Below the pieces are notes generated by a model. That model saw only the letters and a program-made list of their open reading frames with translations, was not told the origin of the DNA and did not search any database. From Candidatus Thorarchaeota archaeon (lineage in GTDB: Archaea; Asgardarchaeota; Thorarchaeia; Thorarchaeales; Thorarchaeaceae), in the NCBI GenBank assembly GCA_029855935.1, contig JAGSHN010000012.1:248001-312000 (forward strand): a stretch of DNA of 64,000 bases, given 5' to 3'. Shown one piece after another: positions 35,906 through 47,858 of the stretch; within the stretch, counting starts at the first letter, position 1, and each line of letters opens with the position of its first letter. Made by a program: the position numbers and the translations under genes.

Positions 35906-37066
35906 TTGGTTGAGATACGGCTGGAGAACCTTCGAAAGACCTTTGGAGATGTTGTGGCGACGGACCAGGTCAACATAGTCCTAGCAGAGGGTGAGCTCTC
36001 GACGCTCCTTGGTCCCTCGGGCTGTGGGAAGACCACCCTTCTGCGTCTGATTGCAGGTTTCTACAAGCCAGACTCAGGGCGGATATACTTTGACGACCGC
36101 GATGTGACCAATCTCCCCCCATACAGGCGCAACACAGGCATGTGCTTCCAGAACTATGCACTCTGGCCTCATATGTCAGTGTACGACAACATCGCCTACG
36201 GTCTGAGACTAAAACGCATCAACGGTATGAAGTACACAAAGGCTGCGATTGACAGGCGTGTCAAGGAGGTCGTCGAGCTTGTGCGCCTCAAGGGTCTGGA
36301 GGACAGACACATCCATCAGCTCTCGGGTGGCCAGCAGCAGCGTGTCGCTCTAGCCCGGGCGCTTGTTGTCGAGCCCGACGTGCTACTCCTCGACGAACCA
36401 CTTTCGAACCTCGATGCAAAGCTGAGGATGGAGATGCGTGAAGAGATCATTCGCATCCAGAAGGAGCTACGCATCACGACCGTGTACGTCACCCATGACC
36501 AGCACGAGGCATTGAGCATCTCTGACAAGGTGGCCGTGATGGACCACGGCTACATTCAGCAGTTCGGCCCGCCCCGAGAGATCTACGCTAACCCACAGAC
36601 GATCTTTGTTGCAGACTTCATCGGCCGGTGCACGTTCATCGACGGAGTCATCAAGTCAATCGGTTCCCACATCGAGGTCAGACTTCCGAATGGCCAGACT
36701 GCTCACGGCAGGGCCACGATCCAGGGTTATCCGTTTGAGATTGGTGAGAAGGTGAAGTGTGCCATCCGTCCGGAGTCCCTTCATCTGCAGAGACACACCC
36801 CTGAGGACAACGAGATTACGGGCACCGTTGTCCGTACAATCTATGTCGGTACTGCTGTTGAGGTCTACTTCCAGATCGGTGAGATTCACGCTGAGGCGCT
36901 TCTGGGACCAGACACAGATGTGTCGCCGGGGGAAGAGATCACATTGTATGCACGACCGACTGAGGTCATGGTGCTGCCACTGGGCGGTGTGGAGGCACTC
37001 AAGAAAGTACCTGGCCATCCGCTCTTCAGATCATCAACCTCTACTGCGACGGCTGTGAGTGCCTGA
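35906..37066 (+). CDS. ABC importer ATPase (Fbp/Pot type)
   Basis: A 386-residue ATPase powering the importer. Walker A is GPSGCGKTT, the Q-loop is CFQNYALWPHM, the signature is LSGGQQQR, Walker B is DVLLLDEPLSNLD, and the switch His is in VYVTHDQHEA. A C-terminal TOBE-like domain follows (EVRLPNGQTAHGRA through VMVLPLGG). The start is a TTG with GAGGTG six bases upstream; the longer open frame to 35861 lies inside the permease gene and is not used. The last 26 bases overlap the 3' end of the convergent tgtA. Confidence 0.93.
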   Translation: MVEIRLENLRKTFGDVVATDQVNIVLAEGELSTLLGPSGCGKTTLLRLIAGFYKPDSGRIYFDDRDVTNLPPYRRNTGMCFQNYALWPHMSVYDNIAYGLRLKRINGMKYTKAAIDRRVKEVVELVRLKGLEDRHIHQLSGGQQQRVALARALVVEPDVLLLDEPLSNLDAKLRMEMREEIIRIQKELRITTVYVTHDQHEALSISDKVAVMDHGYIQQFGPPREIYANPQTIFVADFIGRCTFIDGVIKSIGSHIEVRLPNGQTAHGRATIQGYPFEIGEKVKCAIRPESLHLQRHTPEDNEITGTVVRTIYVGTAVEVYFQIGEIHAEALLGPDTDVSPGEEITLYARPTEVMVLPLGGVEALKKVPGHPLFRSSTSTATAVSA

Positions 37067-39080
37067 TCGTCACAGCGACTCCCCGGTCGAGCGTCAGCAT
37101 CTCCTCCCCTGTAAGCAGGGCACGTCCCACAGCAAGTATAGTACCTCCCTCGTCCGTGACGAGGACCTCCTCCCCTGCCCTTAGTTCTGGGCTCGCGTTC
37201 TTCACGAACTTGGCGAGGGCCGACCTGCCCTCTGCGACGAAGGGAGCCGCCTCATCATTCACGGCTACATAGTATCTCTCCGGGAGTCCCATATCCTCCA
37301 GCGCCAACCCCCCCTCGTACGTGGGGATCAGCAGTCCTGTCATAGGCATCATTGTGAAGAGGATGTCCTCCCCCTCCCTGATGTAGCGAATCTTTCCCGT
37401 TGCTCGCGACAGTTCAACGTTCCACTGTTCGAGCCTGCCGGTGTCACTGATGCCCCATTGATACGTGAATAGCGCACGGAGCTTTCTGAGTGTCCATGCT
37501 CTGTGCCGTACTCCGGAGGCGGTCTTGGTCACGTGTTCTGTGACCTCCGCCGCAGTTTCCAGGGGCGTCATGGTCAGCACCTCCGATACAGCCTCGAAGA
37601 GAACCTGGGTCGGAGCGCTTCTTGCGAACCACACTACCTCGTCCGCCTCGATGGTTGTCAGGACCTCAAGGGCTCTCTCGCGTACCGTGTTCAGCGTGTC
37701 CGCGTCAAGGTATCTTGGGAAGACCGACTGCTGGACGGGATGAACATGTTCGAACTCCCACGGTACTGCGCCAAAGGGTGTCAGGTAGACGACAATGAGG
37801 CGCTCTGGGGTGGTACGCTTGACGAGGTCAACAACCGTGGGAGTAGTCTCCGCAAAGGGTGTATCTGCGAGGTGCGGCACAACTATGACGGTCTCTGTTC
37901 TCCTATAGGGGTAGGATGTCATTATCCTGTCGTGTAGCCGATAGTACACTGGAAGATGTGCTGTTTCCGGGCCAGTATAGAACACTGATGTCGTTGTTCC
38001 CACAGGATGAGACCTCTCAATCTGATCAGCACGGTGCAGTAGTGTCTGGAGCGCATCGTATAGGCTTGGATGCGATCTTGCCCGTGCCGAAGCGAGCTGC
38101 AACAACTCCCCCTCAGCGATTGCCTGCCGGATGCGTCGCATCTCGGCACTTGTGACGTAGAGGTTGTGTCTCATGATTGCTGAGCGTCTCTCGCTCTTGT
38201 TCGTTCGTTTCAGCTCTTCTACGGTGGTCGAGCTACAGACTGGACAGTCACACGGAAGCTCCCGCAGGTCTTTGAGATGAACTGTTCCGCTGGTTAGCAT
38301 CAATCTATCGTCATCGGCGAACTTGGCATAAGACGCTGAGTCAAACAGATCGCATCCGAGCGCCGTCGCCAGCGCGAGAAACATCGGATGCCCACACCCG
38401 AAGAGATGCACTGGCCGGTCTGGTGGGAGGTGCCTCTTTGCTGCAAGTGTCACCCTGACAACATCGGAGTATCGATACTGCTCCATCAGAGGCACCACGC
38501 CCCCGATTGGATGGACGTCAAAGTCGAGCTGGGCGAGCCGCCTCGCCGACATCTCCCTAAGGTCTGTATAGACCCCTCCCTGGACGGTACCTGCAAGAAG
38601 CATATCGCCCTTCTCCGGTACGGACATCTCTCCGCGTTTCAGGGATGTGAGCACGTCGTGCTCGACCTGCTGGCGTCCCACGTCTGGTGCCGAGAACACG
38701 TCAAGGATGGTGCCCACATCAGAGCCAATGTCGCGCTGAAAACGCACGATCTCCAGCGGGTCTATCTCCTCTGACGGGAGGTCGTGAAAGTACATCTGGA
38801 AGGTCCCCGAGTCCGTCATGACGGGTCCCTCGAAGTCGAGCAGACCGTGGACACCTCTCTTCAGCGCGGTCTCGCGCAGCTCCTCTCGCCGACTGATGAT
38901 GTACGAGTTTGTTATCACCATCTGGAAACCGAACTCGGATACCAGCTCCGCGGGTGCTATCTCTGAGCGACCGGGGTGAATGACGGGCATTAGTAATGGT
39001 GTAGTGACTGTCCCGTGTCGCGTCCTGAACTTCCCTATCCTTGCGAGTCCGTCTTTGGTCTTTATCTCAAAGTCGCTCAT
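37041..39080 (-). CDS. tgtA: Archaeosine tRNA-guanine transglycosylase
   Basis: Exchanges guanine-15 of archaeal tRNAs for the 7-deazaguanine preQ0, the step toward archaeosine. The 679-residue protein has the catalytic domain with TDSGTFQMYFHD (Asp nucleophile region), DVFSAPD, GTVQGGVYTDLRE, GGVVPLMEQYRY, FGCGHPMFLALATALGCDLFDSASYAKFADDDR, and a zinc site (CDCPVC with a following Cys-less region and His). Middle domains follow, then a C-terminal PUA domain (PELRAGEEVLVTDEGGTILAVGRAL). Full archaeal length. It is transcribed on its own, opposite to hflX. Confidence 0.94.
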   Translation of the reverse strand: MSDFEIKTKDGLARIGKFRTRHGTVTTPLLMPVIHPGRSEIAPAELVSEFGFQMVITNSYIISRREELRETALKRGVHGLLDFEGPVMTDSGTFQMYFHDLPSEEIDPLEIVRFQRDIGSDVGTILDVFSAPDVGRQQVEHDVLTSLKRGEMSVPEKGDMLLAGTVQGGVYTDLREMSARRLAQLDFDVHPIGGVVPLMEQYRYSDVVRVTLAAKRHLPPDRPVHLFGCGHPMFLALATALGCDLFDSASYAKFADDDRLMLTSGTVHLKDLRELPCDCPVCSSTTVEELKRTNKSERRSAIMRHNLYVTSAEMRRIRQAIAEGELLQLASARARSHPSLYDALQTLLHRADQIERSHPVGTTTSVFYTGPETAHLPVYYRLHDRIMTSYPYRRTETVIVVPHLADTPFAETTPTVVDLVKRTTPERLIVVYLTPFGAVPWEFEHVHPVQQSVFPRYLDADTLNTVRERALEVLTTIEADEVVWFARSAPTQVLFEAVSEVLTMTPLETAAEVTEHVTKTASGVRHRAWTLRKLRALFTYQWGISDTGRLEQWNVELSRATGKIRYIREGEDILFTMMPMTGLLIPTYEGGLALEDMGLPERYYVAVNDEAAPFVAEGRSALAKFVKNASPELRAGEEVLVTDEGGTILAVGRALLTGEEMLTLDRGVAVTIRHSQPSQ

Positions 39081-40494: not shown

Positions 40495-40589
40495 GTGACG
40501 CGCTCTCTTCATCCCACCCTATCAGCAATATTCAATCGGAAACACATAAAGCAAGGGCACTCCGACCGAGGACAGGACTGCAAAGGAGT

Positions 40590-41533
40590 ATGAGACTCTG
40601 CCGACCAGCCAACTGGAACAACTGCTAGAGAGTGGACACTTCGTCATCACATGCGAGGTCCCCGCACCACGCGGATGCAACGTTGACACGTTTCTCTCTC
40701 GAGTCCGGTTGGTCCAACCCTACTGTCACGCCATCAACGTCACGGACAATGTCGGTGCCACTCCATCGATGGACGCACTCGCTGCAGCCCATCTTGTTCT
40801 TGATGCGGGTGTCGAGCCCATCCTTCAGATCTCCGGTCGTGACCGCAACAGAATCGCCCTTCAGAGTCTGCTCTATGGTGCCGCGGCGCTCGGTGTGCGT
40901 AACTTGCTATTCATCACTGGCGACTATCCGGATCTCGCCACGCATCCGCACGCGAAGCCTGTCTTCGACTACGACTCCGTGGAGGCTCTGAGGATTGCAT
41001 CGACGCTGATGGGCGGGGTGGACATCAGCGGTGCTGAGATTGATGGCGCACCACAGTTCTTTCTTGGCTCCACCTTCAATCCCTGCGGCGAGCCGTACGA
41101 CCTTCACCTCATGCGGCTCAGGATGAAGTATGAGACTGGAGCGCGATTCTTCCAGACTCAGGCAATCTTTGACATCAAGAGGTTTGCAGACTTCATGACC
41201 CATGTTCGTCCGCTTGATGTCTGGGTAATAGCAGGTGCAATGTTTCTCCGCAGCCTGGAGGTGGCTGAGGCGCTCGCAGCGTTCCCGGGAGTCCGTATCC
41301 CCCGGGAGGTCATCTACCGACTTGGAAGGGCAGGTCGGGGCATTGACGACGAGGAGGAGCGACTGGCGGCCGAGGCCGAGGAGGGGATGCGGATTGCTGT
41401 GGAAACCGTCAGAGCGCTGGCAGAAGTCCCAGGTGTCAGTGGCATTCATATCATGAGTGTTGGCTGGGTAGATGCAATCCCCGATGTCCTCTCGGAGGCC
41501 GGCCTCGTGTCCGCGGTGACAAACAGGAGGTGA
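40590..41533 (+). CDS. MetF-like 5,10-methylene-tetrahydrofolate/tetrahydromethanopterin reductase; start codon disrupted
   Basis: Reduces a methylene-pterin to the methyl-pterin. The flavoprotein TIM barrel shows INVTDNVGATPSMD, GVEPILQISGRDRNRIALQS, LGVRNLLFITGDYPDL, FFLGSTFNPCGEP and TGARFFQTQAIFD. The conserved first strand (ESGHFVITCEVPAPRG) is encoded upstream of the first usable in-frame start (TTG 40709), in a frame open back to 40550 without any ATG, GTG or TTG. An ATG at 40590 with GGAG just before it and TATA-like CACATAAAGC about 45 bases earlier is one base out of frame. A missing base after that ATG, or a non-standard start, is likely. It heads the MtrH/MtrA cluster. Confidence 0.8.
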
Positions 41534-41537
41534 AACG

Positions 41538-42455
41538 GTGTTCATATTTCGGCAGAAGCAGCAAGTCTTCGACTTTGGCGGGATCCGGATTGGTGGGCAG
41601 CCTGGCGAGAACCCGACGGTGCTGATAGGAGGGCTGTTCTTCAAGGGCCAAGAGGTGGTGGAGAACACACGGGAGGGCCGGTTTGACGCCGCCCTAGCTG
41701 CTCAGTGGTTGTCGCAGGCGCAGGAGATGTCCGAGAGAACCGGTCATCCCCTGATGATACAGATCTATGGACGCACACCCATAGCGATGGAGCGTCATCT
41801 CTCGTGGCTGGCCGACAACTTTGATGGACCATTCCTCTTCGAATCAATCAATGCGCGTGCGAGGATCTATGGGATAGAGTATTGTGATGAGAGGGGCCTT
41901 GTAGACCGCGCGGTCTACAACAGTGTCAATCTCTCTATGACCTCCGAGGAACGTGAAAGACTGTCCGAGTCGTCCATCGACAAGGCTGTCGTCTTGGGAT
42001 GGTCCCCTCGGGCGACCTCTCTTGCAGAGCGGATGGAGACAGTCGAGTCAATGGTGAGTGAGGCACGGCGACTGGGTATGAAAAAGATTCTTGTTGACCC
42101 GGGGACGCTCCCGGTCGGGGCTGGCTACGGTCTCGAATACCGTACCGTGCTTGCCATAAAGTCCGAACTCGGACTACCCACTAGCCTTGGACCACACAAT
42201 GCTCCGGCCTCGTGGAGGTTCATCCGTCAGCAGGCCCTAGACACGGAGGTGATCAGGCTGACGACCAGTGTTGCAGCCACCGTGGTGGCTCAGGTACTGG
42301 CCACCGATGCCCTAATGTACGGTTCTCTCGCGAACAGCAGAGCCGTGTTCGCATCTGTGGCACTGGTGGGAAACGCCATTGCTGCAGCTGCGGCAGAGGC
42401 CCACTATGCAGCTGGACTGGACACATCACTCTTTGAACCACCAACATATGACTAG
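41538..42455 (+). CDS. mtrH: MtrH-like methyl-tetrahydropterin:corrinoid methyltransferase (first copy)
   Basis: A 305-residue protein closely resembling subunit H of tetrahydromethanopterin S-methyltransferase, which carries the methyl group from methyl-H4MPT to the corrinoid on MtrA. Family features: KQQVFDFGGIRIGGQPGENPTVLIGGLFF at the N-terminus, the YNSVNLSMTSEE segment, VDPGTLPVGAGYGLEYRTVLAIKSELGLPTSLGPHNAPASW, a TIM-barrel pterin-binding layout. Four bases after the MetF-like gene and five before mtrA, clearly one operon. No membrane subunits of the Mtr complex are in the window. Confidence 0.9.
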   Translation: MFIFRQKQQVFDFGGIRIGGQPGENPTVLIGGLFFKGQEVVENTREGRFDAALAAQWLSQAQEMSERTGHPLMIQIYGRTPIAMERHLSWLADNFDGPFLFESINARARIYGIEYCDERGLVDRAVYNSVNLSMTSEERERLSESSIDKAVVLGWSPRATSLAERMETVESMVSEARRLGMKKILVDPGTLPVGAGYGLEYRTVLAIKSELGLPTSLGPHNAPASWRFIRQQALDTEVIRLTTSVAATVVAQVLATDALMYGSLANSRAVFASVALVGNAIAAAAAEAHYAAGLDTSLFEPPTYD

Positions 42456-42460
42456 GAGGA

Positions 42461-43171
42461 ATGCGAGCACTCTTGAGCAGAGAATCAGGACCAGAGCGTC
42501 AGTGGCCACCCGCCCCCGGAGACTATGAGGTCGGCGATCCACTGCTCCCCGTGGCGATATGTACACTGGGCAAGAAGATCTCTGTGCCCTCGAAGTATGC
42601 CATCATTGGGACCTGCAAGACAGAGAACATAGGTATCGAGAGAGTGATAGTCAACATAGTCTCCAACCCGAACATTCGCTATCTGATTCTCGCGGGGCCT
42701 GAGGTCCCGGGTCACAGAACTGGCTCAACACTGAGGAGCCTGTATGACCACGGTGTCGACCCCCACACACGGAGAGTTCTGAATGCACCCGGTGCGATAC
42801 CATATGTAGAGAACGTTCCTCTTGAGGCCGTCGAACGCTTCAGGGAGCAGATTGAGCTGGTTGATATGATGAACGTGTCAGACCCAGAACGTATCGCTCG
42901 ACAGGCGGAGGATCTTCTCTCGAGAGGCGCGGAGCCCTTCCCCAAGCCACCCATCTGGGTCGACTTTGGCCATGCGAAACGGGAGCGTCGCGGCAAACAG
43001 CCGAGCGGAGATGTCTGGGTCATCCCGGAATACGGTGTGTCAATCGATCCCGCGACCTCTGTCATAGGACGTGGAGCACCGTCTGCGACCGTCCCTGTCG
43101 GCAAGGGTCATGTCGTCGTCGAGGTGATCTCCGAAGACGGGGGAACAGTACTCTTCACGAGGGAGGAATGA
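42461..43171 (+). CDS. mtrA: MtrA-like corrinoid protein, soluble form
   Basis: A 236-residue homologue of subunit A of the methanogen Mtr complex, the corrinoid carrier. It shows WPPAPGDYEVGDPLLPVAICTLGKK, IIGTCKTENIGIERVIVNIVSNPNIRYLILAGPEVPGHRTGSTL (with the His that coordinates cobalt in MtrA), and GAIPYVENVPLEAVERFREQIELVD. The C-terminal membrane helix of methanogen MtrA is missing; instead a soluble domain (about 165-236, WVDFGHAKRERRG onward) is present, so it should be cytoplasmic. GGAGG precedes the ATG. It lies between two mtrH genes. Confidence 0.9.
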   Translation: MRALLSRESGPERQWPPAPGDYEVGDPLLPVAICTLGKKISVPSKYAIIGTCKTENIGIERVIVNIVSNPNIRYLILAGPEVPGHRTGSTLRSLYDHGVDPHTRRVLNAPGAIPYVENVPLEAVERFREQIELVDMMNVSDPERIARQAEDLLSRGAEPFPKPPIWVDFGHAKRERRGKQPSGDVWVIPEYGVSIDPATSVIGRGAPSATVPVGKGHVVVEVISEDGGTVLFTREE

Positions 43172-43174
43172 CGG

Positions 43175-44110
43175 TTGTTTCTCTTTGACAAGGAACAGGC
43201 AGTGTTTGACGTCAGAGGTGTACGCTTTGGTGGCTCGCCAGGCGAGTTTCCCACGGTTCTCGCAGGGTCGATATTCTATGATGGTGACAAGATAGTGGAG
43301 GATGCCTCCCGAGGAACGTTCGACAGGGCTGCCGCCGAACGATTGATCAGCCTCCAGGATGAGATGTCGGACACCACGGGGAATCCCTGTGTGGTGCAGA
43401 TAGTATCCTCTTCTACAGAGGCGATTGAGAGGTATATCGACTTTGTTGCCGATGTCACCGATGCCCCTATCATCATCGACTCGACCTCCCATGAGGTACG
43501 CATCCGGGGGCTTCGCCATGCTGAGGAGGTGGGCCTGTTCGATGGCGTGATCTACAACTCGCTAAATGTGTCCATCACGAGGGAGGAGATTGAGGCGCTC
43601 TCTGAGATCCCGCCCGAGGCCGCTATTGTTCTTGCCTTCAATCCTCAAGATTCCTCGATGGCCGGTCGTCGTGCTGTTCTCGAACAGGGCGTCCATCGAC
43701 TTGAGAGTGGACTGCTCCAGATGGCCGAGCAACTTGGTGTTCAGAAGCCGCTGATCGACACCGCTATCACATCAATCGGAGCAGGTGCTGGCTCCTCTGT
43801 CGCCTTCATCTTTGTCGCAAAGGCCGCCTACGGCCTGCCCACGGGCGCTGGGATCCACAACGCGCCCGCATCGTGGCCGTGGTTGATCAGCTATCGCAAG
43901 AAGGACCGCGAGGCATTCAAGACCTGTGACGTTTCCTCAAGTCTGATGGTCCAGATGATGGGTGGAGACTTTGTTCTATATGGTCCAATCAAGAACGCGC
44001 CGCGCGTCTTTCCCGTGGCCGCAATGGGTGATGTCATTGCAGCTGAGATGGCTCAAACGGAGTTGGGAATAGAGCCAGCTGAGGGTCATCCTCTGTTTCG
44101 GCTCACATAG
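43175..44110 (+). CDS. mtrH: MtrH-like methyltransferase (second copy)
   Basis: A 311-residue second MtrH homologue, clearly diverged from the first (GVRFGGSPGEFPTVLAGSIFYDGDKIVED; IYNSLNVSITREE; DTAITSIGAGAGSSVAFIFVAKAAYGLPTGAGIHNAPASW). It starts at TTG with GGAGG eight bases upstream, three bases after mtrA. Two MtrH proteins flanking one MtrA suggest two methyl donors or acceptors sharing one corrinoid protein, for example methyl-H4MPT and methyl-H4F or another methylated compound. That division of labour is inference. Confidence 0.88.
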   Translation: MFLFDKEQAVFDVRGVRFGGSPGEFPTVLAGSIFYDGDKIVEDASRGTFDRAAAERLISLQDEMSDTTGNPCVVQIVSSSTEAIERYIDFVADVTDAPIIIDSTSHEVRIRGLRHAEEVGLFDGVIYNSLNVSITREEIEALSEIPPEAAIVLAFNPQDSSMAGRRAVLEQGVHRLESGLLQMAEQLGVQKPLIDTAITSIGAGAGSSVAFIFVAKAAYGLPTGAGIHNAPASWPWLISYRKKDREAFKTCDVSSSLMVQMMGGDFVLYGPIKNAPRVFPVAAMGDVIAAEMAQTELGIEPAEGHPLFRLT

Positions 44111-44116
44111 GAGGCG

Positions 44117-45550
44117 ATGATTGGCATGCCCTTTCGTTTCATCCGGCCACGCGGTCTGAGCACCGCGTCCTTGCGAAGGGGACCCTTCTACGTTGTTGCA
44201 TCTGTGGAGCTGGGTAACACCACGACCAAGTGCATAATCGTGGCCACGGACCTCCGCAATGGCCGGATGTACGAGCTCGCCAAGGTGGTACGTCCAACGC
44301 GCGACGTCCGTCCCCCAGCACCAGACGAAGAGGTGTTCGGCCGCACAGTGGTCGGTGTTCCTCTCACGCGAGAGTCTGTCAGCGAGTTCGTCCGTGACGT
44401 ACTACTTGCAACTGTCGATCGTGCCCGACTCGACCTGTCACACGACCTACACTTTGTCGTCCGTTCAACAGGTGTGACTGCAGGATTTGCGCGTCCCGAG
44501 GAGGTCGGAGAGATGGTGAAGGCCCTTGCCGACGGGTGCCTCTCTGCTGGTATCTCACCACGCCTGATGACCGCCTCGCTGACCCCTGAGAACCTCCCTC
44601 CGGGCATCCGGGACTTCACTTGGCTCAGGAAGGTATACTTCGATGGCGCTATCGCAGGTTGTCTGCCGCCCGCTGACACGGGCGTAGTGGCCAACGAGAT
44701 GGAGGGCGAGCTCGTCACTGCCGGAATCAAGGGCGCCGCTCGGTCTGCTGGGGTGGACTTCCGCAGCCCAGTGATCACATTGGACTTCGGAACGACTCTT
44801 GCAGGGCGGGTCACAGATGCCTCCCTTCCTTATGCAAAGACCGTGGGTTCTTTTGCGGGTCTTGCTGGCGCGATTCCCGATGCTCTGGCACGAGGATCCG
44901 ACCTGGTCGACCCCGAGACTGGTACGGCGCTCGAGCTACCAAGGCCCTCCGGGACCCTAGACGATGGTACCAGTGGTATCGAGGAGGATGTGGAACGGGT
45001 GCACGGGTTGATCCGCGTGCAGCGGGTGGCCAAAGGCAGAACTCGATTCGGTACGGTCCCTGTTGATCCCCGTGCTGCAGAGGAGGCTGGACTCGTTCTC
45101 GTGGGTGTCGATGTGGGTGACAACGGTTCTGGCCTCGCTGTCCTCACAGAGATTGGTCGCGAGGTCTATGACCGTGGCGGTGTCCGCCTCCTGACCCTTC
45201 TTATTGACCTCGTACAGGTAGGACTTGTCGAGCGCATCATGAAAGTGGTGGATGCAAGTGGCCTTCTCCTGAGAGGGACATCACTTGGCCTGACAGGACG
45301 TGCCATCCTCACGGGACAGAAGCCACGCCTCTTGGCGCAACGACTGAGGGCACCTGACGGGTCTCTGTGGGCTGACACCCGTCTCCTTGTTCTTGTCGAG
45401 GACGGTCTTGCTATGGGTGCTGGCGTCGCCGCGAGATGTATGAACTCACTCGGGACGCCTAGGAATCCGATTGGTGGCCGCAGAGGTGACGGCTGCATCA
45501 TGGCCCAGCGTATGAGGCTACAGGGCGAGAGGCGTGGGAACGGCGGCTGA
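44117..45550 (+). CDS. Methanogenesis marker protein 14-like
   Basis: A 477-residue protein matching methanogenesis marker 14: PFYVVASVELGNTTTKCIIVATDL, VRPPAPDEEVFGRTVVGVPLTRESVSEFVRD, HFVVRSTGVTAGFARPEEVGEMVKALADGCL, and NEMEGELVTAGIKGAARSAGVDFRSPVITLDFGTTLAGR. The VASVELGNTTTK and ITLDFGTTLAG stretches look like the two phosphate loops of an ASKHA (actin/hexokinase-like) ATPase, so a corrinoid-reactivating role like RamA/ASKHA activases is a reasonable hypothesis next to MtrA. It is otherwise described from methanogens, with no proven function. It follows the second mtrH by six bases. Confidence 0.82.
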   Translation: MIGMPFRFIRPRGLSTASLRRGPFYVVASVELGNTTTKCIIVATDLRNGRMYELAKVVRPTRDVRPPAPDEEVFGRTVVGVPLTRESVSEFVRDVLLATVDRARLDLSHDLHFVVRSTGVTAGFARPEEVGEMVKALADGCLSAGISPRLMTASLTPENLPPGIRDFTWLRKVYFDGAIAGCLPPADTGVVANEMEGELVTAGIKGAARSAGVDFRSPVITLDFGTTLAGRVTDASLPYAKTVGSFAGLAGAIPDALARGSDLVDPETGTALELPRPSGTLDDGTSGIEEDVERVHGLIRVQRVAKGRTRFGTVPVDPRAAEEAGLVLVGVDVGDNGSGLAVLTEIGREVYDRGGVRLLTLLIDLVQVGLVERIMKVVDASGLLLRGTSLGLTGRAILTGQKPRLLAQRLRAPDGSLWADTRLLVLVEDGLAMGAGVAARCMNSLGTPRNPIGGRRGDGCIMAQRMRLQGERRGNGG

Positions 45551-46403
45551 TGGTCGTCCCCAGGCTGCGGCGTTCGCAGGCCTTATGAGAATGGTCGTGG
45601 CCCTCTCACGCGAGGTATGTGTTCCCTTGCTTGTCATCCCGATAAAGACCCGTATGATCACTCCCGAGGACGACCTCCTGACGGTGATTGCCGAGGGGAT
45701 GGAGCATGCTGGCCAAGTCTTTGAGGACCGCGACATCTTGGGGGTGGCCGAGACGCCCCTGGGAACCACCGAGGGAAGAGTCGTCAGGCTTGCGGATGTC
45801 GAGGTGTCCCCGGAGGCCAAGCGTCTCGCTGATGAGTACGACCTGCTCCCAGAGGTGGCACAGCTCGTTATGGATGAGGCAGACGAGATCCTTGGTGGTA
45901 TTCCTCACGTCCTCCTGACGATAAAGAACAACACGCTGATGGCCAATGCGGGTGTCGACAAGTCGAATGTGCCACCAGGGTATGCCTCGCTCCTGCCTAA
46001 GGACCCACGGGCGAGCGCAGAGCGCATCCGTCGCGAGGTGAGAAGGCGATTCGGGAAAGACGTAGGGGTCGTAGTCATTGACAGTCGCACTCAACCTCTG
46101 CGACTGGGAAACATCGGGATGGCGTTGGGAGTCGCTGGCTTCAGACCCGTCGTTGATGAGAGGGGAAAGAAGGATCTCTTCGGCAATGTGTTGAGGGTGA
46201 CGCGGAGGGCTGTGGCAGATAACCTTGCCTCAGCGTGCACACTCGTGATGGGAGAGTCAAGCGAGTCCGTGCCCGCTGCTCTGGTCAGAGGAGCGCCAGT
46301 GGAGTTCGTCGATTCCTCCTTTGACTCTGCCGAGATGTGGATTCCCCCGGACGAGTGCATGTATATGGCCATCTTCAACAGGTGGAGAAACGCCGAGAGC
46401 TAG
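45534..46403 (+). CDS. CofE-like F420-0:gamma-glutamyl ligase
   Basis: A 289-residue ligase of the CofE family, which adds glutamate to coenzyme F420 using GTP. It shows VIPIKTRMITPEDDLLTVIAEGM, DILGVAETPLGTTEGRVV, NNTLMANAGVDKSNVPPGY, VVVIDSRTQPLRLGNIGMALGVAGF and RAVADNLASACTLVMGES. The GTG at 45534 has GAGAGG before it and overlaps the previous gene by 17 bases; an ATG at 45585 also fits the family N-terminus, so the first 17 residues are doubtful. Its place in a corrinoid/pterin operon could mean a paralogue that glutamylates another cofactor. Confidence 0.85.
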   Translation: MGTAADGRPQAAAFAGLMRMVVALSREVCVPLLVIPIKTRMITPEDDLLTVIAEGMEHAGQVFEDRDILGVAETPLGTTEGRVVRLADVEVSPEAKRLADEYDLLPEVAQLVMDEADEILGGIPHVLLTIKNNTLMANAGVDKSNVPPGYASLLPKDPRASAERIRREVRRRFGKDVGVVVIDSRTQPLRLGNIGMALGVAGFRPVVDERGKKDLFGNVLRVTRRAVADNLASACTLVMGESSESVPAALVRGAPVEFVDSSFDSAEMWIPPDECMYMAIFNRWRNAES

Positions 46404-46508: not shown

Positions 46509-47858
46509 ATGAGTGAGAGAGTAGTGCTACTGGATGTCAGATCAGCAGGTGCCTCAGGGGACATGTTCCTCTCCGCGCTCCTTGACCTTCTTGGTGATCA
46601 AGAGGCCCTTATGAGAGTGGCTGCCAGTCTGTTGATCTACGACCCCTCCATAAGGGTAAAGGTCGAAGAGGTTTCGGCAGACGGTCTGAGGGGTCTGCGC
46701 GTGGATATTCATACCGACAAAGGAATACGCCTGTCCCCAGAGTCGCTGCGAGAGGTGATAAAGGGAGTTGCCGACGAGATTCAGCTCTCGGACATTGCCA
46801 CCAAGTTCTCATATCGTGTTCTTGACAGGCTGCTTGAGGCGGAGTCCAAGGCCCATGGCACGCCAATTGACCAGCTCCATCTCCATGAAACAGGCTCTGT
46901 GGATACTGTCCTTGATATCGTAGGAACCGCCTATCTGCTAGAGCGTTTCGGTCTCCTGGGAAAGGTGCGCTTCCTCTCCACTCCGGTCGCTGTCGGAGAC
47001 GGGACAATTGAGACAGAGCACGGCGAGATGGAGGTCCCCGTCCCAGCTGTCGCAGAAATACTGGTCAGTCACGACGTACCCTACGTCACGGGAGAGGCCA
47101 CCACCGAGGCCTTGACTCCGACTGGCGCTGCGATTCTCGTCACGCTTGTCGACGAGTTCGTGGAGTCGACAGTAGACATCGAGATAGTGAAGGAGGGTGT
47201 GGGATTTGGCTCACGTGACCTGGGGAGGGTGCCGAATGTGATGAAGATTGGGATTGGCAATCGTCCCGAGGCTGCCGAGGCTGCTCCTGTTGCCGACCGC
47301 GTAACCACCACGACCCGCGCGAGAGCTCCCACGGCCAAGCCAGTCACAACAACGGGCAAGAAATCCTCGGCGCCCACGGGGGTGGGCGTCTGGGAGACCG
47401 ACCAGGTCCTTGTCATAGAGACCACGGTCGACGACGTAGATGGTGAGGCTATCGGGTCAATCTTCGACACGCTGCTCTCCAGTGGTGACGCCTATGACGT
47501 CATAATGATACCTGCCTTTGGTAAGAAGAACCGTCCGTGTTATGTCATCAAGGTGTTGGCTCCCGAGTCCAGCCTTATGACCGTGGCTGAGACCCTTGTC
47601 CGGCATCTCGGCTCTCTTGGTGTGCGGTATACTACGTGGGATCGGCTCAAGGCTGTCCGTGAGATAATCGTGTGCCGCTTGGAGATAGATGGCAAGGAAT
47701 ACATGGTCCGGGTGAAGGTCTCGCGTTCACCGGATGGCAGCATCATCAATATCAAGCCCGAGGCTGATGACCTGATGAAGGTGTCTGCTGAGACTGGTAT
47801 GCCTGTGCGCGAGCTCAAGCCGCGTGTGGCGCTCCAAGCCTATGCAGTCACCGACTGA
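46509..47858 (+). CDS. larC: LarC-like nickel-insertion protein (nickel-pincer cofactor synthesis)
   Basis: A 449-residue LarC/DUF111 family protein. LarC is the CTP-dependent cyclometallase that inserts nickel into the pyridinium dithiocarboxylate pincer cofactor. Evidence: RSAGASGDMFLSALLDLLG at the N-terminus, LHLHETGSVDTVLDIVGTAYLLE, TPVAVGDGTIETEHGEMEVPVPAV, TPTGAAILVTLV, KEGVGFGSRDLGRVPN, then a low-complexity Thr/Ala/Lys linker (about 260-295) and the C-terminal domain ETTVDDVDGEAIG. LarB, LarE and a LarA racemase are not in the window. The gene has its own TATA box and structured leader. It overlaps polB tail-to-tail by 11 bases. Confidence 0.88.
   Translation: MSERVVLLDVRSAGASGDMFLSALLDLLGDQEALMRVAASLLIYDPSIRVKVEEVSADGLRGLRVDIHTDKGIRLSPESLREVIKGVADEIQLSDIATKFSYRVLDRLLEAESKAHGTPIDQLHLHETGSVDTVLDIVGTAYLLERFGLLGKVRFLSTPVAVGDGTIETEHGEMEVPVPAVAEILVSHDVPYVTGEATTEALTPTGAAILVTLVDEFVESTVDIEIVKEGVGFGSRDLGRVPNVMKIGIGNRPEAAEAAPVADRVTTTTRARAPTAKPVTTTGKKSSAPTGVGVWETDQVLVIETTVDDVDGEAIGSIFDTLLSSGDAYDVIMIPAFGKKNRPCYVIKVLAPESSLMTVAETLVRHLGSLGVRYTTWDRLKAVREIIVCRLEIDGKEYMVRVKVSRSPDGSIINIKPEADDLMKVSAETGMPVRELKPRVALQAYAVTD

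Follow-up and report, generated by a model that had tools for sequence, protein, structure and literature searches.

We analysed a 64,000-nt stretch of a Candidatus Thorarchaeota genome (assembly GCA_029855935.1, contig JAGSHN010000012.1, positions 248,001-312,000; hereafter the window), which carries at 40.6-46.4 kb a cluster of genes for a MetF-like reductase, a divergent MtrH (MtrH1), a soluble MtrA corrinoid protein, a second MtrH (MtrH2) and methanogenesis marker 14 (MM14), with CofE directly downstream. We consider it about evenly balanced whether the products of this cluster form a soluble methyl shuttle between folate and methanopterin, without sodium pumping, in which MM14 reactivates MtrA. 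The first five genes, MetF to MM14, are separated by gaps of 3-6 bases, MM14 and CofE overlap, and the host genome (Thorarchaeia, Asgard archaea) has 2.97 Mb and is 97.3% complete. In the proposed mechanism, MetF would make or consume methyl-tetrahydrofolate (methyl-H4F), an MtrB-like arm fused to the C-terminus of MtrA would hold both MtrH proteins on MtrA, and the single corrinoid domain would swing between the MtrH1 and MtrH2 active sites, which would face opposite ways; MM14, a predicted ATPase of the ASKHA (acetate and sugar kinases/Hsc70/actin) superfamily, would bring accidentally oxidised MtrA back to Co(I). We infer the direction of flux, and also the pairing of MtrH1 with MtrH2 in a heterodimer, for and against which the chances seem to us equal.

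No transmembrane helix was found in the window MtrA by hydropathy and alignment: its best 19-residue hydropathy is 1.08, as compared to 2.2-2.8 in three methanogen MtrA proteins, in agreement with an initial annotation made from the DNA letters, which had described an MtrA lacking its membrane helix. The corrinoid domain is intact (the fold match to 5laa has 46% identity). Its cobalt-ligand His85, found in GPEVPGH and aligned to H84 of M. marburgensis, is invariant in 27 Thorarchaeial MtrA; loss of this residue had been named in the initial annotation as a refutation, and the alignment has it in place. Where the membrane helix of methanogen MtrA would be, there is a conserved beta-rich tail (model predicted local distance difference test score, pLDDT, about 76), which begins with a stretch resembling the N-terminal arm of MtrB (window, DVWVIPEYGVSIDPATSVIG; Methanobacteriaceae MtrB, IKVVPEFNYSLDPSTGIIG). 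In the M. mazei Mtr complex, the MtrH dimer is docked by residues 1-23 of MtrB, and salt bridges link MtrB R5 to MtrH D5 and MtrB E9 to MtrH R211 (PMC12774963). The Glu of the PE motif in the window MtrA (Glu190), equated with MtrB E9, is invariant in the 27 Thorarchaeial MtrA.

The similarity to the MtrB arm was examined in several ways, and the single scores are modest except for one BLASTP match, in which the MtrA tail of G179 (a genome from a second Asgard lineage) shares 47% identity with MtrB over 30 residues (E 4e-8, as a single comparison). Alignment of the MtrA tail with the MtrB arm by hhalign gave an E-value of 1.4e-5 and a probability of 80, and the Pfam MtrB model matches two MtrA tails (best E 0.0035). 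When the tail profile was searched against 177,635 PDB sequences, the sole match at E<=10 was MtrB (8q3v_B), a weak one at E 0.15. Conversely, the MtrB arm searched against 2,001 Thorarchaeial open reading frames (ORFs) placed MtrA at all of ranks 1-11, which are mutual orthologues and so do not count as 11 independent tests; among 200 shuffled arms, an MtrA ORF came top in 4, and none attained the real best E-value. A three-sequence MtrB profile (two of its rows from the divergent MtrB of loci L039 and L043) did not rank MtrA first, which the Methanobacteriaceae arm alone did, so the link to MtrB rests on the Methanobacteria arms, the Pfam model and G179. By these comparisons, the window MtrA has swapped the membrane anchor for a segment homologous to the MtrB arm. 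In genome G198, a further MtrA-like domain, distinct from the canonical MtrA there, is fused to a preceding ferredoxin domain with two [4Fe-4S] clusters (L170:3110-4135); this metagenome-assembled genome (MAG) has 9% contamination, and the fusion may be mis-binned.

The two MtrH copies, which the initial annotation had already called different, fall into distinct clades. MtrH1 forms a clade of its own (support 100/100) on a stem of 1.29 changes per site, and MtrH2 clusters with a methanogen MtrH (94/77); a recent duplication as the origin of the pair is ruled out by this tree. We compared 25 MtrH1 and 28 MtrH2 sequences at functional positions, given here in M. mazei numbering. MtrH2 keeps the pterin residues N129, D196 and N230 (27-28 of 28) and D103 (27/28), and has Lys or Arg at both 242 and 243 in all 28. 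MtrH1 has invariant N129, D196, N230 and H229 (25/25), Glu in place of D103 (25/25), and in 24 of 25 cases lacks both K242 and K243, which are replaced mostly by Gly and Phe/Leu. K242 and K243 have been proposed to hold the anionic tail of tetrahydromethanopterin (H4MPT) or tetrahydrosarcinapterin (H4SPT) (PMC12774963). The docking Arg R211 is found in every MtrH1 and in no MtrH2 (25/25 and 0/28), and at position 5 MtrH1 has Lys or Arg and MtrH2 mostly an acidic residue. The simplest reading of these residues is a division of labour, with MtrH2 predicted to serve methanopterin and MtrH1 a carrier without that tail, together with docking of the arm. For MtrH1 the foremost candidate is folate, because MetF is the operon partner of MtrH1 and the folate-specific MtgA (which has Asp at position 103) also lacks the two lysines; on these grounds the balance tips slightly towards a folate-type carrier as the substrate. 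Other MtrH paralogues, in Asgard loci L160, L161, L162, L168 and L172, show losses among the pterin residues (N or Y for D103, G or R for N230), which suggests that they are MtrH-fold proteins of other function.

For MM14, an AlphaFold2 model with a mean pLDDT of 91.9 matches AnmK, FtsA, CoaX, benzoyl-CoA-reductase-type and dehydratase activators, and EutJ (Z 15-17.5), and the Foldseek matches include the RACo chain of a complex with a corrinoid protein (4c1n). The phosphate loops ELGNTTTK and DFGTTLAG, to which the initial annotation had pointed, are largely invariant, and so are, without exception, C141, C441 and C460, which could be metal ligands. Borrel et al. 2014 (PMC4153887) found marker 14 close to the mtr operon in several methanogen orders and no marker 14 in the Mtr-less Methanomassiliicoccales, and hence consider a function for Mtr probable. 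The postulated reductive activator of Mtr is a RACo enzyme that depends on ATP and is uncharacterised (PMC12774963). Within the flanks examined, MM14 is near mtr in just 3 of 52 methanogen loci. Since MM14 is kept here with only MtrA and MtrH, its target is probably one of these, and we regard MM14 as a reasonably probable candidate for the MtrA reactivase. The initial annotation had proposed marker 14 as an ATP-dependent corrinoid activase: the ASKHA fold is upheld by the confident model, and the activase role stays a proposal, as the fold covers kinases too.

The cluster is conserved far beyond chance, because the order MetF-MtrH1-MtrA-MtrH2-MM14-CofE-LarC is held in 28 Thorarchaeial contigs, wherever the contig reaches. 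CofE lies downstream of MM14 in all retrieved relatives that extend that far, and MetV (PF12225) adjoins MetF in 8 of 22 relatives. Among 227 Asgard genomes surveyed, MM14 is present in 43 of the 47 members of the host's family and in one other lineage, that of G179, where MtrH1-MtrA-MtrH2 are on one contig and MM14-CofE on another; MtrA is found in 40 of the 47 family members. The window MM14 is 58-63% identical to its homologues in Thorarchaeota MAGs. Most other Asgard MtrA domains lie within open frames some 500 aa long (L171, which was examined, is an MtrA-MtrH fusion), and among the genomes with such frames MM14 occurs only in G179, which also has separate MtrH1-MtrA-MtrH2 copies. No MtrE was detected in any of the 227 Asgard genomes, the host included (MtrC and MtrD were not searched separately), and McrA had no match in the host genome, whose one MtrA and two MtrH are those of the cluster. 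The host genome thus has no complete mtr operon elsewhere, a point on which the initial annotation had made its proposal depend, and the gene content bears out its proposal of corrinoid methyl transfer without sodium pumping.

The host genome is predicted to have both carriers, as it encodes Mer (396 bits against a cut-off of 349) and, in one shared neighborhood, formate-H4F ligase (Fhs), FolD and an FtcD-cyclohydrolase protein. Replacement of Mer by MetF, as has been proposed for ANME-1 (a lineage of anaerobic methanotrophic archaea), is ruled out here by the presence of Mer above its cut-off. Pathways of both the tetrahydromethanopterin (THMPT) and tetrahydrofolate (THF) types occur in Thorarchaeota, according to work cited in PMC6737245. 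The link between methyl-H4MPT and methyl-H4F suggested in the initial annotation gains from the presence of Mer, Fhs, FolD, FtcD and MetF in one genome and from the diverging MtrH residues, while its folate end depends on the substrate that we infer for MtrH1. The methylated external substrate suggested there as another option is not borne out, as methyltransferases of the methylamine or methanol type are absent from the cluster (no genome-wide search for MttB was made).

Several observations weigh against the shuttle. The change of D103 to Glu in MtrH1 is unexplained by folate use, since the folate-specific MtgA keeps Asp, and K242 and K243 are also absent from 8z9u (substrate not checked), so their loss is not unique to folate enzymes. 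MetV was not found in the host genome. DUF2114 is the sole domain detected in MM14, with no ferredoxin-like (iron-sulfur) domain as in RACo, and the ASKHA fold is common to activases and kinases. This last point leaves room for MM14 as a small-molecule or protein kinase, a role that would rival the reactivation step only and is compatible with the shuttle. Its best structural matches do include sugar kinases (AnmK) and the pantothenate kinase CoaX; however, dehydratase activators, EutJ and RACo match as well, and the genomic tie to MtrA and MtrH in the absence of Mcr and MtrE fits a maintenance role better, which makes a kinase rather unlikely in our judgement.

The fate of the methyl group could also differ. 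MtrA might act as an anabolic donor that passes methyl groups to homocysteine (through a core methionine synthase) or to coenzyme M (CoM), with MtrH1 and MtrH2 only loading it, and the cluster would then be no bridge between carriers; in methanogens, MesA is predicted to receive its methyl group from MtrA (Price et al. 2021, PMC7857596), CoM synthesis is predicted for Freyarchaeia (PMC11291895), and the host genome has no acetyl-CoA synthase (ACS) to use methyl-H4MPT. But MesA is reported from methanogens only (PMC7857596), the conserved neighbors include no recognisable methionine synthase or CoM enzyme (methionine synthase was not searched genome-wide), and the retention of two diverged MtrH would be unexplained, so we regard this as improbable. 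Somewhat less probable still is that MtrH1 is a non-catalytic or regulatory dock for the MtrA arm through R211, with MtrH2 alone catalytic and the methyl group going to some other acceptor. The restriction of R211 to MtrH1 and its loss from MtrH2, the Glu for D103 in all MtrH1 and the long stem branch (1.29) would fit such a dock, but N129, D196, N230 and H229 are invariant in MtrH1, unlike in the degenerate Asgard paralogues, where several such residues are lost. The cluster might instead feed methyl groups to carbon monoxide dehydrogenase/ACS (CODH/ACS) in an acetogenic or mixotrophic Wood-Ljungdahl metabolism, given that CdhC is present in 18 of the 47 family members and that Thorarchaeia are described as mixotrophs around the Wood-Ljungdahl pathway (PMC9635834). 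CdhC is, however, absent from the other 29, the host included, and the 10 of these with a completeness of at least 95% (the host and nine others) all have MtrA and MM14; the cluster therefore persists without ACS. Neither CdhC nor CdhD/CdhE was found in the host genome, where the sole PF03599 match is an HgcA-like protein. Feeding CODH/ACS is thus disfavoured as the core function, and for this host we hold it very unlikely.

The HgcA-like corrinoid membrane protein (L174:10384-11679; contig 13, 72.4-73.7 kb) scores 181 bits with NF040863, below the cut-off of 275. It has the motif NVWCAARG (the canonical HgcA motif is NVWCAAGK) and adjoins a small, HgcB-like ferredoxin that has two clusters and a Cys-rich tail; the two are a possible hgcAB-like pair in a Thorarchaeon.

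As compared to known systems, the cluster resembles the methanogen methyl-H4MPT:coenzyme M methyltransferase (MtrABCDEFGH) in the MtrA corrinoid domain with its His ligand, the MtrH TIM barrel with its pterin residues, the MtrB-type MtrH-docking arm (here inside MtrA) and the association with marker 14. It differs in having no MtrE, no membrane anchor, the arm fused to MtrA, and two diverged MtrH in place of one. We consider it an Mtr variant and not a member of the sodium-pumping complex, because that complex needs MtrC-E and a membrane anchor. Three-component corrinoid methyltransferases (MtgB/MtgC/MtgA) likewise place two methyltransferases around one corrinoid protein, and MtgA is an MtrH relative, but in the cluster both methyltransferases are of the MtrH type and the corrinoid protein is MtrA, not of the MtgC/MtaC type. 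The MtrAH fusions of Freyarchaeia and Atabeyarchaeia (PMC11291895) also combine MtrA and MtrH in non-methanogenic Asgard archaea, in one fused polypeptide of about 500 aa as opposed to separate genes here. MM14 shares with RACo/RamA and BadF/HgdC-type activators the ASKHA ATPase fold (RACo and HgdC type) and the proposed ATP-dependent reduction to Co(I), and differs from RACo in domain content and in having no credible relative in the PDB detectable by sequence. The host MetF, in turn, is without the MetV partner of the acetogen-type MetF/MetV methylene-H4F reductase. The specific combination of a neofunctionalised MtrH heterodimer on an MtrA-MtrB-arm fusion, acting as a folate:methanopterin trans-methylase without energy coupling and with marker 14 as the Mtr reactivase, is a tentative proposal that we rate a little below an even chance.

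The table lists the features of the cluster. Pfam and TIGRFAM matches agree with the gene assignments and positions of the initial annotation, with one correction at the MetF start: the ATG at 40591 is in the wrong frame, and there is no in-frame ATG, GTG or TTG before the conserved N-terminus (window 40553-40709), so that a CTG start at 40598, or an indel or single-base sequence error, is possible.

Table. Features of the methyl-transfer cluster (positions within the window).
Feature	Position	Strand	Evidence and remarks
MetF-like methylenetetrahydrofolate reductase	40598..41533	+	PF02219 E 2.8e-29; adjoins MtrH1 in 22 Thorarchaeial loci
MtrH1, divergent MtrH paralogue	41538..42455	+	PF02007 237 bits, under TIGR01114 cut-off
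Soluble MtrA corrinoid protein, 236 aa	42461..43171	+	PF04208 174 bits; fold match 5laa, 5l8x, 9qtr
His85 codon, cobalt ligand of MtrA	42713..42715	+	alignment to M. marburgensis His84
MtrB-like arm in MtrA C-terminus, DVWVIPEYGVSIDPATSVIGRG	43010..43075	+	Glu190 equated with MtrB Glu9
MtrH2, canonical MtrH	43175..44110	+	PF02007 385 bits; TIGR01114 394 bits vs cut-off 271.4
MM14 (DUF2114), ASKHA-fold predicted ATPase	44117..45550	+	PF09887; TIGR03285 583.9 bits vs cut-off 274
CofE, F420-0:L-glutamate ligase	45534..46403	+	TIGR01916 205 bits; internal in-frame start farther downstream possible
LarC-like nickel-insertion protein	46509..47858	+	PF01969, TIGR00299; synteny

The LarC-like protein is a conserved neighbor, not clearly a member of the pathway. 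Other genes found around the cluster include TgtA and HflX, often upstream in Thorarchaeial relatives; a TgtA-type protein is encoded in the window at 37041-39080, in the position of this upstream neighbor, and its C-terminal two-thirds also match archaeosine synthase ArcS (187 bits, below the cut-off of 440). In several relatives a gene for a solute-binding protein lies between HflX/MetV and MetF (L010:2270-4348, SBP_bac_5; L007:2585-4405 and L013:2052-4394 are alike by eye).

It is already published that Thorarchaeia keep MtrA and MtrH with an Mtr-linked marker (Adam et al. 2022; Borrel et al. 2014). Adam et al. 2022 (PMC9635834), in the passages considered here, report MtrAH without other subunits, together with the Mtr-tied marker m26, in Thorarchaeia; these are almost certainly the same genes as the cluster, and m26 is presumably marker 14. 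Those passages make no mention of the MtrH1-MtrA-MtrH2 arrangement, the operon MetF, the MtrB-like arm or the residue partition. Relative to the literature examined, the new elements are the MtrB-arm fusion, the partition of residues between MtrH1 and MtrH2, and the arguments for a methyl bridge between folate and methanopterin.

For carbon exchange between the folate and methanopterin pools of Thorarchaeia, this operon offers a concrete candidate; if the proposal is true, a trans-methylase would join bacterial-type and archaeal-type C1 pathways in one Asgard cell. The soluble minimal set of MtrA, two MtrH and MM14 makes it testable which protein brings the cobamide of Mtr back to Co(I) once it is oxidised. 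In this non-methanogenic Asgard archaeon a soluble part of the methanogen methyl-transfer machine is retained, with two different methyltransferases around one corrinoid protein. Its MtrA-MtrB-arm fusion shows how a membrane sodium pump can be reduced to a cytosolic enzyme with its docking element retained.

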